Shown one piece after another: positions 3,590 to 31,566 of a stretch of 33,743 bases of DNA (position 1 is the stretch's first letter; every line of letters begins with the position of its first letter). A program made the translations under genes and the position numbers. The notes under the pieces were generated by a model. That model did not search any database. It saw nothing but the letters and a program-made list of their open reading frames with translations, and had not been told where the DNA came from. Location of the stretch: NCBI GenBank assembly GCA_021647785.1, contig JAKIUC010000048.1:1-33743 (forward strand), written 5' to 3'. This DNA is from Melioribacteraceae bacterium (GTDB lineage Bacteria; Bacteroidota; Ignavibacteria; Ignavibacteriales; Melioribacteraceae).

Positions 3590-4123
3590 ATGAGCAAGAA
3601 AAAGAAAAATTCAAAAAAAAGATTTATTAAAGTTGTGAGTGCTGCAGTAGCCCTTGCATTCCTTATATTTATTCTGTTTTTAAATTTACCGCAAAAAGAA
3701 AATAAAGAAAGTATTGCTGTGAAAAAATCGAGCATAAAATTTAAAAAAGATGGTGAGCTAACATTCCAATCAGCAGAAGGGAATTACATTTCAAAGATTG
3801 ATATTGAGATTGCTGATAATGATGATAAAAGAACTCATGGTCTAATGGATAGACTTAGCATGGAAGAAAATCATGGAATGCTTTTCATCTTTCCGTATGA
3901 AACTATCCAATCTTTTTGGATGAAGAATACTGTAATTCCGTTAGATATAATTTTTGTGAATAAAGAAAATGTGATTGTTACAATACATACAGATACTGTT
4001 CCATTCGATACTGGACAATATCGTTCAACAAAACCAGCCATAATGGTTGTGGAAGTTGTTGCCGGCTATACTGATTTATATGAAATTAATGTAGGCGATA
4101 AAATTGTTTGGAGAAGGAATTGA
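3590..4123 (+). CDS. DUF192-family protein, membrane-anchored
   Basis: 177 residues. A lysine-rich N-terminus (MSKKKKNSKKRF) precedes one hydrophobic helix at about residues 14-34, acting as an uncleaved anchor or signal. The rest is a DUF192 domain, recognised by the sequence IEIADNDDKRTHGLMDR (family pattern: A.....R..GLM.R), then GMLFIFPYE, the hallmark FWMKNTVIPLDIIFV, and AIMVVEVVAG near the end. The family is a small beta-barrel of unknown biochemical role, generally exported; some relatives bind or respond to sugars or metals, which is not established. It is complete. The stop is followed at once by the heptamer repeat array that forms the left arm of the four-helix-bundle element. Confidence 0.85.
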   Translation: MSKKKKNSKKRFIKVVSAAVALAFLIFILFLNLPQKENKESIAVKKSSIKFKKDGELTFQSAEGNYISKIDIEIADNDDKRTHGLMDRLSMEENHGMLFIFPYETIQSFWMKNTVIPLDIIFVNKENVIVTIHTDTVPFDTGQYRSTKPAIMVVEVVAGYTDLYEINVGDKIVWRRN

Positions 4124-4125
4124 GG

Positions 4126-4279
4126 CGGGATTTGGGTTTCGGGTTTCGGGTTTCGGGTTTCGGGATTTGGGTTTCGGGTTTCGGGTTTCGGGATTTGGGT
4201 TTCGGGTTTCGGGTTTCGGGTTTCGGGTTGCGGGTTGCGGGTTTCGGGTTGCGAGTTGTGGGGTTTCGAGTTTCGGGTT
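4126..4279. repeat. Telomere-like heptamer array (GGGTTTC)n, left arm of a four-helix-bundle element
   Basis: About 154 bp made almost entirely of GGGTTTC, with GGGATTT and GGGTTGC variants and decay towards the right end. GGG runs recur every seven bases, separated by four, which fits the G-quadruplex pattern on the plus strand and an i-motif on the minus strand. The array is open in several frames on both strands only because it is periodic; those frames are not genes. It begins two bases after the DUF192 stop and ends about 30 bases before the four-helix-bundle start. Its last part (4245-4257, CGGGTTGCGAGTT) reappears inverted after that gene at 4706-4718 with one mismatch. Confidence 0.9.
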
Positions 4280-4310
4280 GTGTGTGTTAATTTAAAATTT
4301 TGGTGGGAAT

Positions 4311-4679
4311 ATGAAGAGTTATAATGATTTAGAAGTGTATCAATTATCATATAGTTTAGCGATTGAAGTTCATAAAATGTCTCTCGAATTACCAAAATAT
4401 GAAATATATGAACAAGGGAGTCAGATTAGACGATCATCAAAAGCGATTAAAGATGCGATTGCTGAAGGATATGGACGACGACGATATAAAGCTGATTTTA
4501 TAAAATATTTGGTTTATGCTCATGCCTCATGTGATGAAGCAATTTCACAATTAAATATGATAAGTGATATTCATTATTCCAATAATCCATTAACAGACTT
4601 AATAAGTAGTTATAATTTGTTAGGAGCAAAAATCAATAAATTTATTCAATACGTAGAAACTAATTGGAAGACTAAATAA
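4311..4679 (+). CDS. Four-helix-bundle protein (23S rRNA IVP / S23 family)
   Basis: 122 residues. It matches the family known from open reading frames in 23S rRNA intervening sequences: the start YNDLEVYQLSYSLAIEVHKM, the central QIRRSSKAIKDAIAEGYGRR (family core: IRRA..SIP.NIAEG.GR), then the A..S..EA..QL pattern in AHASCDEAISQLNMI. The fold is four long amphipathic helices that form a pentamer in solved relatives, and Avd of diversity-generating retroelements has the same fold. No catalytic residues are known. GGTGGG precedes the ATG by three bases. The gene sits inside repeat arms: a GGGTTTC array on the left and a 14-bp tandem repeat on the right that begins in the stop codon. This layout suggests a movable cassette inserted between the DUF192 gene and dgt (inference). 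Confidence 0.85.
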   Translation: MKSYNDLEVYQLSYSLAIEVHKMSLELPKYEIYEQGSQIRRSSKAIKDAIAEGYGRRRYKADFIKYLVYAHASCDEAISQLNMISDIHYSNNPLTDLISSYNLLGAKINKFIQYVETNWKTK

Positions 4680-4718
4680 CTCAAAACTAGGAACTCAAAA
4701 CTAGGAACTCGTAACCCG
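4678..4718. repeat. 14-bp tandem repeat, right arm of a four-helix-bundle element
   Basis: AACTCAAAACTAGG occurs at 4678-4691 and 4692-4705, followed by a partial third unit, AACTC. The first unit overlaps the last two bases of the stop codon of the preceding gene. The end, AACTCGTAACCCG (4706-4718), is the reverse complement, with one mismatch, of a piece of the left arm at 4245-4257. This is the only sequence the two arms share. Confidence 0.75.
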
Positions 4719-4754
4719 ACATCTGGTTTTAATGAAAAAAATAACGGATAGACC

Positions 4755-6029
4755 ATGAACAACAAATTTTATAACGATTTCGATTTTGAACGTGCTGAAG
4801 AAAGCATTCGCAAAGATGATTACAGAACCCCTTTCCAGATTGACCGCGATAGGTTAATCCACTCATCCGAGTTCAGAAGATTGCAGGGGAAAACGCAAGT
4901 ATTTTTACCAGGCGAAAATGATTACTACCGAACCCGCTTAACGCACTCAATTGAAGTATCGCAAATTGGAAGATCAATTACAAATTACATCACTAAAAAA
5001 CATTCTGAAATATTTAGCGACACATTTTTCATTGATGAAGATTTAGTTGAATCCACTTGCCTTGCTCACGATTTGGGGCATCCGCCCTTTGGACACGCAG
5101 GTGAAAGAACTTTAAATATTTTGATGAAACCCTACGGTGGCTTTGAAGGAAATGGGCAAACACTTCGTATGCTCACCGATACATTCTATACAATTGGCGA
5201 TGGCAGAAGAGGAATGAAACCAACACGTGCTTTTGTTGATGCAATTTTGAAATACAAATCTGTTTTTTCAAAATTTGATAATCCTAAAAACCATTTCATT
5301 TATGATTATCAAAAAAAATATGTTGACTTTGTTTTTGACGGAAGGGAATTGCCAACAGAGTTGAAAGACCCGAATAAATTAAATGATTTTAAAAGCATCG
5401 AATGTCAAATTATGGATTGGGCAGATGATGCAGCCTATGCAGTAAATGACTTAGTCGATTCAATTTCCGGCGGATTTATAAATACAGCCAAACTCCAAAA
5501 ATGGAGAAAGTCGAATTTAGATAATCTATCGGAGGCACAAATTGAATCACTAAATAAAATTGAAAAATGGATTACTGAAGAGAGATACAAATCAAAATTT
5601 GGTTCTGAGATTGGTGAGTTTATTCATGCCTGCTCTATTGAAGTGAGAGAAACATTTATGGACGATTTAACAAATAGATATAAATATATTTTAACAATTG
5701 AAAAAGAGAAGTTTAAACGAATTGAAATGTATAAAAGAATTGCAGTCGATTTAGTTTTCCGTGCACCGCAACTACATCAAATGGAATTTAAAGGAAACGA
5801 AATGATTAAGAAAATGTTTGATGCTTTTACAGAAAATTATGTTGATGAAATTACAGGCATTGAACTTCTTCCAAATTTTACAAATAATTTAATAAAAAAA
5901 GAGAGTGATAAAAGTGAAAGAGCAAGGTTAGTCTGCGATTATCTTGCCGGAATGACAGATGCATTTGCATTAACAAATTACAAGCGATTATTCGACCCAG
6001 ACTATAGCTCCATTGCAGATATCTTCTAA
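4755..6029 (+). CDS. dgt: Deoxyguanosinetriphosphate triphosphohydrolase-like protein (dGTPase)
   Basis: 424 residues. HD-superfamily metalloenzyme that cleaves dNTPs to deoxynucleosides and tripolyphosphate. Visible motifs: the N-terminal DDYRTPFQIDRDRLIHSSEFRRL with LQGKTQVF, typical of the family; TRLTHSIEVSQIGRS supplying the first histidine near residue 62; AHDLGHPPFGHAGE near residues 104-117 with the HD pair; and the last metal ligand in MDWADDAAYAVNDLVD near residue 225. Length and motifs are complete. It is bracketed by two different four-helix-bundle cassettes, both inserted very close to its ends (the right one starts at the stop codon). It would lower dNTP pools; a defence role against phages is known for some relatives but is not implied by anything here. 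No convincing ribosome site precedes the ATG. Confidence 0.93.
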   Translation: MNNKFYNDFDFERAEESIRKDDYRTPFQIDRDRLIHSSEFRRLQGKTQVFLPGENDYYRTRLTHSIEVSQIGRSITNYITKKHSEIFSDTFFIDEDLVESTCLAHDLGHPPFGHAGERTLNILMKPYGGFEGNGQTLRMLTDTFYTIGDGRRGMKPTRAFVDAILKYKSVFSKFDNPKNHFIYDYQKKYVDFVFDGRELPTELKDPNKLNDFKSIECQIMDWADDAAYAVNDLVDSISGGFINTAKLQKWRKSNLDNLSEAQIESLNKIEKWITEERYKSKFGSEIGEFIHACSIEVRETFMDDLTNRYKYILTIEKEKFKRIEMYKRIAVDLVFRAPQLHQMEFKGNEMIKKMFDAFTENYVDEITGIELLPNFTNNLIKKESDKSERARLVCDYLAGMTDAFALTNYKRLFDPDYSSIADIF

Positions 6030-6446
6030 TTGACAAATGATAATGGAGAATTGATAATTATGAAAGAGAATGTAATTTTAGATAAAAGTTTAGACTTTGC
6101 AGTTCGTATTGTAAATTTGTACAAATATCTTATTTCGGATAAGAAAGAATATGTTTTGTCGAAACAAATATTAAAAAGTGGAACAGCAATTGGAGCATTA
6201 GTGCGAGAAGCCCAGCAAGCTGAAAGTAACGCAGATTTTATTCACAAATTAGCAATTGCTCTTAAAGAAGCAGACGAAACTGATTATTGGCTGATTCTGC
6301 TTAATAAAACTGACTATTTAAATGACGAACAATTTTCATCATTAAAAAATGATGCGGAAGAATTAATTAAACTATTAATTTCAATCATTAAATCTTCAAA
6401 AGAAAAAAAGAATAAAAAATAATTATCAATTAACCATTATCAATTG
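6028..6446 (+). mobile_element. Minimal inverted-repeat cassette carrying one four-helix-bundle gene
   Basis: Two 26-base arms at 6034-6059 and 6421-6446 are reverse complements of each other at 23 of 26 positions. Each arm contains two copies of a short motif of the form AATTGATAAT(T/G). The left arm ends on the base before the ATG of the enclosed gene. The right arm starts inside its stop codon. The element therefore consists of one gene and its arms and nothing else. It starts at the dgt stop and ends eight bases before the DUF971 gene. No transposase is present, so any movement would need help in trans. Mobility is inference; the inverted repeats are seen directly. Confidence 0.6.
6060..6422 (+). 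CDS. Four-helix-bundle protein (23S rRNA IVP-like, second subtype)
   Basis: 120 residues from the ATG at 6060. A longer frame from a TTG at 6030 would translate the inverted-repeat arm and is rejected. The protein is all helical: FAVRIVNLYKYLI, then EYVLSKQILKSGTAIGALVREA, AESNADFIHKLAIALKEADETDYWL and a lysine-rich C-terminus. QILKSGTAIGALVREAQ corresponds to the IRRA..SI..NIAEG core of the family, and the LKEADETDYWL.LL pattern is typical of the subtype. It differs strongly from the 4311-4679 protein, so the two are not recent duplicates. A GGAG sits inside the left arm, 12 bases before the ATG, somewhat far. The function is unknown; relatives are carried in rRNA intervening sequences or serve as Avd in diversity-generating retroelements, but no reverse transcriptase is nearby. 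Confidence 0.8.
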   Translation: MKENVILDKSLDFAVRIVNLYKYLISDKKEYVLSKQILKSGTAIGALVREAQQAESNADFIHKLAIALKEADETDYWLILLNKTDYLNDEQFSSLKNDAEELIKLLISIIKSSKEKKNKK

Positions 6447-6453
6447 GAAACCT

Positions 6454-6795
6454 ATGTTAAGCCCAAAAAAAATAAAAAAGAATGAAGAAGAATCCGTAAC
6501 CATTGAATGGAAAGATGGACGCATACATACAATCCCAAATAAATTTTTACGTGATGAATCGCCCGATGCGAGTAACAAAGGGGAAACAATACTTTGGACC
6601 CACTACGAACCAGTTCCGCAAGGACCAGATAAGCCTGGCAAATATGAAATTAAAAATATCGAAGTAGTAGGGAGCTATGCAATGCAAATTACTTGGGGCG
6701 ATGGCTACAACCACGGAATTTACACTTGGGACTTACTCGAAAAATGGGGTGAGTTTTGGAAGATGAAAAATGATTTAAAAGAAAATTTGGAATAA
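6454..6795 (+). CDS. DUF971 (GBBH-like N-terminal domain) protein
   Basis: 113 residues consisting of a single DUF971 domain. Motifs: VTIEWKDGRIHTIPNKFLRD (family: I.W.DG....fp...LR), then CP-less variant SPDASNKGE, ILWTHYEPVPQGP, and the C-terminal VGSYAMQITWGDGYNHGIYTWDLL (family: vG.YAl.i.w.DgH..GiY.w..L). In eukaryotic gamma-butyrobetaine hydroxylases the same domain is a small zinc-binding N-terminal module; in bacteria it stands alone and is often found near Mrp/ApbC. The usual cysteine and histidine ligands are not all visible here, so zinc binding is unsure. It directly follows the inverted-repeat cassette and may originally have been co-transcribed with dgt. A terminator follows. Confidence 0.8.
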   Translation: MLSPKKIKKNEEESVTIEWKDGRIHTIPNKFLRDESPDASNKGETILWTHYEPVPQGPDKPGKYEIKNIEVVGSYAMQITWGDGYNHGIYTWDLLEKWGEFWKMKNDLKENLE

Positions 6796-28008: not shown

Positions 28009-29436
28009 ATGGCAATTAATAGAACAAAGACAAAAATTTTAGCAACTCTTGGACCCTCTACTGATAGTGAAGAGATGATACTTCACCTTGTGGATGCTGG
28101 GGTAAATGGATTTAGACTTAACTTCTCTCATGGAGATAAAGAGTATTTCAACAATCTTTTTGAAAAAATAAATCTTGTTTGCGAGGCACGAAAACTTCCC
28201 ATTCCAATTATTCAAGATTTGCAAGGACCTAAAATCCGGATTGGAAAACTTAAAAAAGAAAAGATTAAAATTAAATCTGGGAATAGTATTGAAATTACTA
28301 TTGATGAGGTTGAAGGTGATGAAAAAATTATTTCTGCCTCATATCAGTCTTTAGTACAAGATGCTAAAATTGGGGAAACAATTTTAATTGATGATGGATT
28401 AATAAAATTAGAAGTATCTGAAAAGAGAGAACGTTCACTAATATGTAAAATTATTGAAGGTGGGAGACTAAAACCAAAAAAGGGAATGAACTTACCTGGA
28501 ATGAAATTAAGCACTCCAGCATTAACAGAGCAGGATAAGGCAAATCTTGAATTCGCATTAAAATACCGAATTGATTACATTGCACTCTCTTTCGTTCGCT
28601 CGGCAAAAGATATTGTTGAACTTAGAGATTGGCTTACAGAAAAAGGTTATAAAAAACCAATTATTGCAAAAATTGAAAAGCCTGAAGCTGTTGAGAATTT
28701 TGAAGAAATTCTAAAAGTTGCTGATGTGATAATGGTTGCACGTGGAGATTTGGGTGTTGAGATGGAGCCGCAGCTTGTTCCTACAATTCAGAAAAAAATT
28801 ATTAGACGCTGCAATGAGGTTGGAAAACTTGTAATAACTGCAACGCAAATGTTAGAATCGATGATAACAAATCCAATACCTACAAGGGCTGAAGCCTCTG
28901 ACGTTGCTAATGCTGTACTTGACGGAACTGATGTAGTTATGCTTAGTGGCGAAACGGCTGCGGGGGAGTATCCAATAAAGACTGTAGAGATGATGCGTGA
29001 AATATTATTGTCCATACAATCACAAAGACTGTTTCTTCCGGATGTAAATTGGGAAGTACCTGTAGATAAAATAGAAAATATTTTTGATGCAACAGCTAAA
29101 GGGTTTACACAGATTGCAAACCAAGTGAAAGCCGATGCAATAGTGGTCTTTACTCATGCAGGACGTCAAGCAATGCGAATGTCTAAGTACAACCCCAATG
29201 CAGATATTTATGCTTTCTCCGATAACTTTGAAGTTTTAAATGCGTTAAATCTACATAAATCAATTACACCATTATATCTCAAGGATATAAATGATGAAAA
29301 ATATTATATGCGAAGGTCGGTAGAAATATTGAAAGAGAAAGAGTTTGTAAGTGATGGGGACTTGCTCCTTTTTGCTGCTGGTGCTCCGCTTGCAGAAGTG
29401 GAAAGAAAAAGTTGGGTGAGATTTAAAGTGGTTTAA
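28009..29436 (+). CDS. pyk: Pyruvate kinase
   Basis: 475 residues. Last step of glycolysis: phosphoenolpyruvate and ADP to pyruvate and ATP in the cytoplasm. Motifs: KTKILATLGPS at the start, NFSHGD near 40, IIQDLQGPKIRIG near 65, the active-site block IIAKIEKPEAVENFEEIL with VARGDLGVE near 220-250, ATQMLESMITNPIPTRAEASDVANAVLDG near 280 and MLSGETAAGEYP near 320. The C-terminal regulatory domain is present (AIVVFTHAGRQAMRMSKYNP). GAGG lies six bases before the ATG. The gene follows the Lon-like protease closely and lacks an obvious terminator; an octamer repeat array begins 14 bases after the stop. Confidence 0.97.
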   Translation: MAINRTKTKILATLGPSTDSEEMILHLVDAGVNGFRLNFSHGDKEYFNNLFEKINLVCEARKLPIPIIQDLQGPKIRIGKLKKEKIKIKSGNSIEITIDEVEGDEKIISASYQSLVQDAKIGETILIDDGLIKLEVSEKRERSLICKIIEGGRLKPKKGMNLPGMKLSTPALTEQDKANLEFALKYRIDYIALSFVRSAKDIVELRDWLTEKGYKKPIIAKIEKPEAVENFEEILKVADVIMVARGDLGVEMEPQLVPTIQKKIIRRCNEVGKLVITATQMLESMITNPIPTRAEASDVANAVLDGTDVVMLSGETAAGEYPIKTVEMMREILLSIQSQRLFLPDVNWEVPVDKIENIFDATAKGFTQIANQVKADAIVVFTHAGRQAMRMSKYNPNADIYAFSDNFEVLNALNLHKSITPLYLKDINDEKYYMRRSVEILKEKEFVSDGDLLLFAAGAPLAEVERKSWVRFKVV

Positions 29437-29450
29437 AATAGAATTGTTAA

Positions 29451-29506
29451 ATTGTTTCATTGTTTCATTGTTTCATTGTTTCATTGTTTCATTGTTTCAT
29501 TGTTCT
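29451..29506. repeat. Octamer tandem repeat (ATTGTTTC)6
   Basis: Six perfect copies of ATTGTTTC from 29451 to 29498 and a degenerate seventh (ATTGTTCT) to 29506. It directly follows pyk. The array resembles in style the repeat arms beside the four-helix-bundle genes but no such gene is here. Between it and the next gene (to 29799) lie element R1 copy B and otherwise AT-rich sequence without a gene. Confidence 0.85.
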
Positions 29507-29799: not shown

Positions 29800-30815
29800 A
29801 TGTTATATCAAGCTAAATGGTGGATTAAAGAAGAGAGTGGAAAATTAAAATGCACACTCTGTCCGCGCTATTGGTATTAGCAGAAGGACAAAAAGGATTC
29901 TGTTTCATCAGAGAAAATATTGATGGAACCCTTTATTCTACTGGCTATGGACGACCAACTGGTTTTGCAATTGACCCAATTGAGAAAAAACCACTCTTCC
30001 ATTTTTATCCAAACACAGAAATACTGAGCTTCGGAACTGCTGGCTGCAACCTTGGATGTAAGTTCTGCCAAAACTGGACAATGAGTAAATCGAAACTTGA
30101 TGAGATAAATTCTGTTACTGCATCTCCGGAAGATGTAATAAAACTCGCACAGAAGCATAATGTAAAATCTATAGCATATACTTACAACGACCCCACTATT
30201 ATTGGGGAATATGTTATTGATGTTTCAAAACCCGCACGGGAATTGGGGATTAAGTCAGTAATGGTAACGGCTGGCTATATTGATAAAGAAGCACGCAAAG
30301 ATGTTTATAAATACATTGATGCAGCAAACATTGATTTAAAAGCATTCACAGAGGATTTCTATCACAACTTAACTTCATCCAAACTTGCACCAGTATTGGA
30401 TACAATTAAATGGTTGAAGAACGAAACAGATATTTGGATTGAACTTACAACACTAATAATTCCAAATAAAAATGATTCGGATGATGAAATAAAGCTAATG
30501 TCTGATTGGATTTTAGAAAACATTGGCGATGAAGTACCACATCATTTTACAGCTTTCCATCCAACATTTAAAATGAATAATCATCAACGTACACCTTCTG
30601 CAACATTAGATAGAGTAAGAAACATTGCTATGAATGCAGGATTGAAATACGTCTATGTTGGAAATGTACATAATCCGGAAGCAGAAACAACATACTGCCC
30701 CAAATGTAAATCCCCTTTAATAGAAAGGGATTGGCACAGTGTTAACTCAAATAAAATTATTAATGGAAGTTGTTTTAAGTGTAAATCAAAAATTGCTGGT
30801 ATTTACAATACTTGA
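29800..30815 (+). CDS. amrS: AmmeMemoRadiSam-system radical SAM enzyme, frameshifted near the N-terminus
   Basis: The main frame (from 29874) encodes a radical SAM protein with FGTAGCNLGCKFCQNW (CX3CX2C cluster site), VTAGYI, ANIDLKAF, the C-terminal GNVHN and a cysteine pair CPKC...CFKC, as in AmrS/PflA-like proteins. The family has an N-terminal part with a C-x2-C-P-x2-C motif. That part is here in another frame: from the ATG at 29800 it reads LYQAKWWIKEESGKLKC, then TLCPRY and meets a stop at 29878. The two halves join if one base is added after 29873, giving CPRYC-VLAEGQKGFC. A start at 29850 would drop the cysteine motif and read a nonsense leader. This is either a real mutation or a sequencing error. 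No amrA or amrB partner gene is in the window. Confidence 0.85.
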
Positions 30816-31312: not shown

Positions 31313-31328
31313 ACCAACTTTTACTTTC

Positions 31329-31520
31329 ACCCACCCCTAAATCCCCTCCGAGGATGGGACTTTTTTGTGACGCCATACCCCTTTGGGGCATGGCAATTAT
31401 TTTACCTCTTTAGAAAGACATTTTAGAATCCATCTCACTCGAAAGAAATCTTCAAAAAGTCCCCCCCTCTCGAAAGAGATATTTAAAAGTCCCCTCTTGG
31501 GAGGGGATTTAGGGGTGGGT
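31329..31520. mobile_element. 192-bp inverted-repeat element after hicB
   Basis: ACCCACCCCTAAATCCCCTC starts at 31329 and its reverse complement ends at 31520, about 21 bases with no mismatch seen. Inside, GCCATACCCC pairs with GGGGCATGGC around TTT at 31372-31394. Several C-rich and AAAGTCCCC pieces repeat. No gene is present. From 31521 to 31566 there is nothing further. The C-rich/G-rich composition differs sharply from the AT-rich neighbours. Confidence 0.7.
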
Positions 31521-31566
31521 AAAAAGAATTCGGTGGAAAAGTAATCCGTCATTAACGTAACACTAA

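Follow-up and report, generated by a model that had tools for sequence, protein, structure and literature searches.

S23-family genes between mirrored heptamer arrays: comparative evidence suggesting a widespread, very small genetic element in bacteria

To understand what kind of unit is formed by a single four-helix-bundle gene and the simple repeats on either side of it, we analysed two such cassettes in a stretch of 33,743 nucleotides (the window) from a Melioribacteraceae bacterium (contig JAKIUC010000048.1) and compared them with related loci in other genomes (Table 1). An earlier note, made from the sequence alone, had described cassette 1 as one gene with repeats lying between unrelated genes, and this is what we find, with a DUF192 gene on one side and dgt on the other. 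Only 2 nt separate the stop codon of the DUF192 gene from the left arm, which carries the GGGTTTC array reported in that note ahead of the S23 gene; TRF places it at 4126-4279 (21.9 copies, score 215, top of the 24 rows for the window). The sense strand of this arm is G-rich, with 20 GGG tracts in 4126-4279, and contains 19 [AG]GTT motifs at 7-nt spacing, with three exceptions. The 14-bp tandem repeat said to begin in the stop codon of the gene is likewise present (AACTCAAAACTAGG, 4678-4710, its first letters inside the TAA); it consists of two heptamers and lies inside the right arm, whose reverse complement reads GGGTTAC GAGTTCC TAGTTTT GAGTTCC TAGTTTT GAGTTAT. Six [AG]GTT motifs stand exactly 7 nt apart in the right arm, a number reached in 0 of 10,000 shuffles (shuffle mean 1.1), and lag-7 identity in 4676-4719 is 0.62 as against 0.30 in shuffles. 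In cassette 1 a single degenerate heptamer ([AG]GTT once per 7 nt) thus makes up the two arms, which are inverted relative to each other. The description of the arms as different has therefore to be withdrawn; the inverted 13-mer that they were said to share (4245-4257 and 4706-4718, one mismatch) is real, but it is not their sole likeness, since both are [AG]GTT heptamer arrays. Their alignment with each other scores 19, a value reached by 0.6% of swapped-arm partners (rank 0.006). The S23 gene stands alone between the arms, with no transposase gene there, and an Rfam search of the window returned no match at gathering score. In its site cassette 1 is unlike a 23S rRNA intervening sequence (IVS): protein genes adjoin it, and no 23S rRNA gene surrounds it.

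Table 1. Features of the two cassettes and of the neighbouring genes (positions in the window)
Feature	Position	Strand	Basis
DUF192 protein gene, upstream neighbour of cassette 1	3590..4123	+	PF02643 E 1.1e-29
Cassette 1 left arm, heptamers GGGTTTC / GGGTTGC / GAGTTGT	4126..4290	+	TRF, lag-7 identity 0.82
Cassette 1 S23 / 23S rRNA-intervening-sequence-protein-family gene, 122 aa, four-helix bundle	4311..4679	+	PF05635, TIGR02436
Cassette 1 right arm, inverted heptamers of the left-arm class, overlapping the stop codon	4672..4719	-	[AG]GTT spacing, lag-7 identity
dGTPase-like gene (dgt), downstream of cassette 1 and upstream of cassette 2	4755..6029	+	TIGR01353 E 9.2e-97
Cassette 2 left arm, AATTGAC AAATGAT AATGGAG AATTGAT AATT	6028..6062	+	complementarity, lag-7 0.64
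Cassette 2 S23-family gene, 120 aa from ATG	6060..6422	+	PF05635 E 2e-28; TIGR02436 E 5.2e-31
Cassette 2 right arm, inverted heptamers	6419..6448	-	lag-7 0.62
GBBH-like_N protein gene, downstream of cassette 2	6454..6795	+	PF06155 E 7.7e-20

The left arm of cassette 2 begins within the stop codon of dgt, and 28 nt of it are 89% complementary to the right arm. As cassette 2 also consists of mirrored heptamers, the two cassettes share their repeat period, a degenerate motif and their layout. Elsewhere in the window an 8-bp tandem repeat (ATTGTTTC, 7.8 copies, 96%) occupies 29443-29504, between ORFs 28009-29436 and 29850-30815, which by eye resemble pyruvate kinase and radical-SAM genes, respectively; it may be a gene-less arm, since a period of 8 occurs in some S23 arms of the same genome (L008 and L010). 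An inverted pair of 40 nt each, 120 nt apart (31325-31364 and 31485-31524), has neither period 7 nor an S23 gene and is possibly a small repeat element.

The protein encoded by cassette 1 matches PF05635 (E 1.2e-23, 83.8 bits against a cut-off of 33.8) and TIGR02436 (E 3.9e-25, 88.2 bits, cut-off 24). Its AF2 model (pLDDT 84.9, pTM 0.80) has helices at residues 4-25, 34-55, 60-88 and 95-118 and a short one at 27-30, and Foldseek places first the entries 2rld and 2gsc (E 5.8e-4 and 6.1e-4), each with five chains; family profiles, model and structural matches agree with the four-helix bundle that had been read from the letters. S23 structures have been solved since 2006-2007, and their titles still say hypothetical or unknown function. 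PF05635 has been described as Avd-like (PMC10053308), and S23 proteins have their fold class in common with Avd, the accessory protein of DGRs, although the cassette has no reverse transcriptase. Chains of DGR ribonucleoproteins appear at Foldseek rank 15 and lower (E 0.24), outranked by helical bundles that are unrelated, a pectin methylesterase inhibitor among them. We rejected a reverse transcriptase acting in trans as a general requirement: no more than 23 of the 58 genomes have an RVT_1 match, including our own genome (G000), where the single match lies on another contig (G000:C38), and RVT_1 is absent from the other 35, among them G019 and G048, which have 31 and 19 S23 matches, respectively. 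No catalytic domain was found in the cassette, and it encodes no recombinase. The family is present in 54 of the 58 genomes (our own and 57 relatives from the same order), with 0-31 matches in each and 374 in total, 12 of these being PF05635 matches in our own genome. Outside the order, eight groups of Flavobacterium S23 loci occupy the same place in different genomes; their median dS is 0.65-1.75 and their dN/dS 0.02-0.08 (8 of 59 pairs, in which dS was saturated, were left out), so that the S23 protein in Flavobacterium is, judging from substitution rates, under purifying selection. For a Nostoc trio, dN/dS is 0.46, with few changes.

Complementarity of the arms was scored by aligning the 300 nt upstream of each gene with the reverse complement of the 300 nt downstream, the null being arms swapped between loci. 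Our own-order set comprised 85 of the 374 matches (12 from our own genome, the rest mostly the best-scoring), one of which was dropped for short flanks; 60 of the remaining 84 ranked in the best 5%, 24 of them beating all swapped partners, and 24 of 84 failed. By comparison, 1 of 30 PF06155 genes, of similar size and from the same genomes, passed. Inspection of the S23 loci of our own genome shows complementary arms of simple repeats at most of them, with a sequence particular to each locus, and 10 of 12 rank in the best 1%, the failures being L005 and L012 (broken frame). A further control took ORFs of 85-190 aa in the fetched stretches and counted complementary arms at a score of at least 18: these were present at 7 of 9 S23 ORFs as against 2 of 135 other ORFs in our own genome and at 2 of 2 as against 0 of 102 in G048, which pools to 9/11 versus 2/237, cassette 2 of the window being counted as a miss because its called start (TTG) falls in the arm. 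In stretches of two S23-less genomes, 1 of 72 ORFs had such arms. For the S23 class in general, the idea of units that hold one gene between repeat arms is upheld, and the ORF control shows repeats of this kind to be neither equally common beside other genes nor absent beside other members of the family. Inverted pairs scoring at least 20 number 29 in 813 kb of our own genome as against 3 in simulated sequence of equal size; 7 of the 29 rows surround an S23 gene (six genes), and cassette 1 falls slightly below the cut. In G048, 400 kb of evenly spaced sequence contained two such pairs, one around an S23 gene and the other having one arm in common with the first.

Three inverted pairs without an S23 gene (L318:8892-9258, L273:4177-4563 and L310:13125-13564) share an almost identical 26-nt arm (AACCTTCGAGGTGGGGTGTAATAAAT type), spaced by 315-388 nt within the pairs, and look like a short repeated element of our own genome. 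GIY-YIG genes passed the arm test at rank 5% in 11 of 29 loci (a thirtieth was dropped for short flanks), yet they lack period 7, and we rejected them as a second cargo of these arms. Strong direct repeats link both sides in 23 of the 29 GIY-YIG loci, and in two places the genes stand in tandem with equal scores and regular spacing (G046:C1:120132-122135, 450 nt; G048:C1:2945594-2947066, 315 nt).

In all three S23 sets (own order, named genomes and plasmids), the self-identity of both arms has maxima at lags 7, 14 and 21, peaks that are absent from the PF06155 and GIY-YIG control sets. The arms mirror each other in register, since shuffling the order of the heptamers in one arm reduces complementarity (p<=0.05) at 140 of 176 loci (61/85 own-order, 66/77 named, with three of 80 dropped, and 13/14 plasmid). 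From the 115 of 179 loci that pass a period-7 filter (best lag 7), the left arm gives the degenerate heptamer N-A-R-T-K-N-W, with 4.34 bits of information as against maxima of 3.19 in column-permuted and 3.84 in strand-flipped controls (20 of each); when the 37 own-order arms are taken by themselves, they exceed the controls by little (3.40 versus 3.22 and 2.84). Mirrored arms that can be measured strictly have four or five heptamers in 79 of 117 cases, the median cassette length is about 454 bp, and the fit between genes is tight, the left arm beginning a median of 3 nt past the upstream stop and a median of 11 nt separating the end of the right arm from the start that follows (n=90 for both). 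The notion that AT-rich slippage produces such repeats as a mutational artefact, with S23 genes merely nearby by chance, might draw on the existence of heptamer arrays without S23 genes and on the hypervariability of the arms between Planktothrix strains. We consider it very improbable, as the period is exactly 7 across phyla and the mirroring is in register, while neither feature is seen at PF06155 genes, the period is missing from GIY-YIG genes and the two do not come together at other ORFs in these genomes.

Strict heptamer arrays in 1.59 Mb lay away from any S23 gene in four of five cases, one of them in an S23-less genome, and the density of such arrays was abandoned as a marker for being too strict (1 array near 10 S23 domains of our own genome, 0 near 2 in G048). 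One of these, L316:14759-14858, has mirrored arms without a gene, between two co-directional genes, which from its layout would fit a remnant; the other three S23-less strict arrays have no clear partner arm. Mirrored heptamer-like runs with no S23 gene between them, as if arms had been left over, were also seen by eye at L317:4258-4359 and L302:1300-1660.

The same arms are found well outside the order. Among plasmids, arms were seen at 14 of 14 S23 loci, from Cyanobacteriota, Chloroflexota, Spirochaetota, Bacillota and Bacteroidota (14 of 25 matching records were checked; 2 phage and 38 further plasmid records were left out), and 13 of the 14 ranked at <=0.04 among 26 swapped partners each. 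The named-genome set, the best 80 of 587 relatives from a scan with an S23 alignment, has a clear period-7 left arm in 65 cases. Counted by eye, 37 of these 65 have the consensus AAT[TG]G, from which many of the remaining consensuses differ by one letter; the titles of the AAT[TG]G records include Bacteroidota, a cyanobacterium, Gammaproteobacteria, Clostridiales, Leptospiraceae and Planctomycetota. Only 32 of 76 loci from these best 80 of 587 pass the arm test at rank 5% (four of 80 were dropped), which we ascribe to a common heptamer vocabulary that lets swapped arms fit too. On the evidence of the aligned loci, S23 arms occur in Cyanobacteriota, Bacillota, Spirochaetota, Gammaproteobacteria and Chloroflexota as well. 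The similarity of left arms in 5-mers rises with the identity of the proteins: the Mantel r is 0.452, with a maximum of 0.099 in 500 permutations (138 of 179 loci, all 14 plasmid loci being left out), and by set it is 0.253 in our own order (permuted maximum 0.129) and 0.513 in the named set (0.158). These correlations suggest that the arms go with protein lineage more than with host, in a test that did not treat host as a separate factor. The earlier note's contention that architecture, and not sequence, is what such cassettes share no longer stands, given a degenerate heptamer common to the loci and arm sequences that correlate with the protein. Some plasmid cassettes lie amid cas2-cas1 (L145 and L146, Nostoc and Anabaena plasmids) or just ahead of cas1 (L150, a Pseudanabaena plasmid), and plasmid S23 genes are repeatedly found by restriction, methylase and helicase genes annotated as DISARM/BREX (L143, L144, L149, L151, L153, L155, L327 and L328).

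Sites with and without a cassette bear on mobility. The comparison of relatives at the DUF192-dgt junction that had been proposed for cassette 1 gave an S23-less junction in 4 of 4 congeners, as did the dgt-PF06155 junction, where the PF06155 gene directly follows dgt in all four (dgt 80-87% identical; 8 of 30 dgt loci were laid out). Short palindromic runs in the DUF192-dgt junction of L240 and L241 resemble, by eye, leftover arms. On a Nostoc plasmid (L147), a cassette of ~449 bp breaks a methyltransferase gene that is intact in L331-L333, replacing ~309 bp, and the cassette that lies at the cas2-cas1 junction of Nostoc plasmids in L145 and L146 is missing from L334 and L335; the filled and empty forms do not match over ~60 bp at the cas1 end. 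Target DNA is unmatched at both of these Nostoc sites and at the dgt-PF06155 junction, and loss of target seems common from these alignments, although a later deletion may account for it. By eye no target duplication was seen at the empty sites, where a duplication could have been lost with the missing target DNA. No near-identical intact S23 cassettes were found at separate sites within G019, G048, G034 or our own genome (21/31, 15/19, 14/15 and 11/12 matches compared, respectively), so that there is no sign of current transposition, and we rejected recent transposition within these four genomes. The clearest sign of duplication is a stretch of G019 (L398) that, over 274 nt, matches the intact S23 gene in L013 with 91% identity; several broken S23 frames lie at G019:C132 (L398, L401 and L402) and at G019:C389. 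Of 78 own-order cassettes, 71 have the same direction as both neighbours (controls 17/28 and 11/25), which counts against a mobile reading, as no such bias would come from a DNA element that inserts at random; 6 of 159 cassettes are antisense to both neighbours. Movement, if it occurs, is rare or chiefly between cells.

The S23 gene might instead be a settled host regulator with its own operator, the arms serving as immobile, autoregulatory arrays of binding sites and the patchy distribution reflecting gene gain and loss. The low dN/dS, the orthologous positions retained across Flavobacterium genomes, the lack of recent copies and an arm motif that follows the protein would all suit such a gene, and long vertical retention in Flavobacterium, which counts against an element, fits it too. 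We nevertheless regard this explanation as improbable, given the range of 0-31 matches per genome within one order, the empty orthologous junctions and the copy that breaks a methyltransferase gene; moreover, operator arrays need neither a mirrored register nor joint change of the two arms.

How the arms change is seen among close relatives. Nostoc strain C057 has exactly one heptamer fewer in both arms, on plasmids 96% identical over the stretch. In Planktothrix the arms differ between strains while the remainder is nearly identical, the change being unequal between the two arms, and the arms are, by this strain comparison, hypervariable. When arms were swapped among orthologues in the eight Flavobacterium and three cyanobacterial plasmid groups, the left arm was a better match for the right arm from the same genome than for one from an orthologue at 27 of 37 loci and in 10 of 11 groups, group V being opposite; by pairs, 43 of 66 were better, 16 worse and 7 equal (Wilcoxon over loci p 0.0017, uncorrected for relatedness). 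Concerted change of the two arms is thus documented by one strain comparison, together with a statistical tendency across orthologues, and the swaps indicate that arms tend to stay complementary while changing. As arm fit is retained at the dS and dN/dS values given above for Flavobacterium, both the protein and the complementarity appear to be kept while arm sequence drifts.

Complementarity kept over such synonymous divergence would also be expected if the arms acted as RNA, forming a long stem with the S23 frame in its loop that RNase III cuts, while the S23 protein binds its own 5' leader and selection acts on pairing rather than on sequence. The co-direction with neighbouring genes agrees with this, as does the predicted folding of cassettes 1 and 2, which is better than that of dinucleotide shuffles (z -2.57 and -2.91; 0 of 100 for each). 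There is a precedent in the rRNA IVS of Coxiella, which is described as having a 28-bp stem and excision by RNase III, and for which a mobile origin has been suggested (PMC4990558). Stems under selection should, however, favour G.U over A.C mismatches, and across 130 loci these number 217 and 214; own-order loci lean towards RNA (144 G.U versus 110 A.C) and the named subset leans the other way (87 versus 105). Cassettes antisense to both neighbours (the 6 of 159, and cas2-cas1) argue against a role in the transcript and, like the equal mismatch counts, favour DNA. Folding of cassette 1 is predicted to pair the right arm with the inner part of the left arm alone, whose outer ~95 nt fold onto themselves. 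We judge the RNA explanation unlikely, and with G.U and A.C mismatches equal, an RNA stem as the sole selected feature is not favoured.

The reading that we prefer, to which we give an even chance, takes 4126-4719 and 6028-6448 as widespread one-gene elements (~450 bp), non-rRNA relatives of S23-coding IVSs, with heptamer ends that are recognised by the S23 protein they enclose. It builds on the observed architecture, the period of 7, the in-register mirroring, the correlation of protein with arm, the absence from orthologous junctions and the purifying selection. Each unit runs from a left heptamer array through the S23 gene to the same array in mirror image. As a small oligomer with a four-helix-bundle fold, the S23 protein would bind the heptamers of its own ends, possibly with one protomer per heptamer; an oligomer of this kind is the simplest account, because the period is exactly 7, the motif is linked to the protein and the arrays have four to five units, an arm of that length being close to what a pentamer would span. 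The complex of protein and arm may be required for the unit to insert and persist. The arms could be kept mirrored by copying one from the other in a folded-back DNA strand, where template switching might maintain the mirror at the DNA level, and insertion by stop codons would be tolerated since a heptamer such as TAATTGA can provide a new stop. Arm-test failures, heptamer arrays without S23 genes, the unequal arms of Planktothrix, group V and the arm passes of GIY-YIG genes stand against this element reading.

Units of this kind resemble several known systems. Insertion sequences with terminal inverted repeats (TIR) and MITEs, like the cassettes, have inverted ends around one gene and gene-less derivatives, but the cassettes are without a transposase, their ends vary from copy to copy and no target duplication was seen by eye. 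Cyanobacterial STRRs, G-rich and of period 7, are comparable with the cassette arms. The G-rich heptamers of Xanthomonas (GGGAATC) and Nostoc (GGGGAYT) resemble the left arm of cassette 1 in period and in G-richness; Rehm et al. reported G-rich heptamers at such positions beside genes and, in the part of the text that is available, drew no link with S23, the terms S23, four helix and xcc0516 being absent from it. The IVS elements of 23S rRNA in Coxiella and Leptospira likewise combine an S23 family protein with complementary ends, and in Coxiella the heptamer GACAGAT is tandemly repeated ahead of the S23p frame, two or three times depending on the strain; the Coxiella paper is the closest published description that we found (PMC4990558). 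The cassettes differ in sitting between or inside protein genes and in having heptamer arrays as both arms, and whereas, in the view of that paper, the S23p frame of Coxiella is undergoing reductive evolution and is unlikely to be expressed, the cassette protein is under purifying selection in Flavobacterium. An S23 family protein is also listed beside CRISPR adaptation genes in a figure legend of another study (PMC10910872), a listing that insertion between cas2 and cas1 may explain. Our literature search, with most subscription journals and preprints outside its coverage, returned no account linking S23 genes outside rRNA to mirrored heptamer arms.

A bolder form of the element reading, which we offer tentatively and hold at somewhat less than an even chance, is that S23 units are a class of element in their own right, with a small non-enzymatic four-helix protein that would read heptamers by protomer, in a spelling specific to the subfamily, and keep the ends mirrored; many unexplained arrays such as the cyanobacterial STRRs and the Xanthomonas GGGAATC repeats would then be ends or remnants, and rRNA IVSs one landing place. 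The pattern would unite the origin of 23S rRNA IVSs, the heptamer arrays that lie between genes in cyanobacteria and xanthomonads, and the listing of S23 beside CRISPR adaptation genes. That two ends stay complementary while both change sequence is unusual, and for a family that is common and whose structures are titled hypothetical, the matched pairs of protein and heptamer offer a direct, testable guess at the binding target of S23. Taken together, our comparisons suggest that a widespread genetic element of very small size has the neglected S23 genes at its core.
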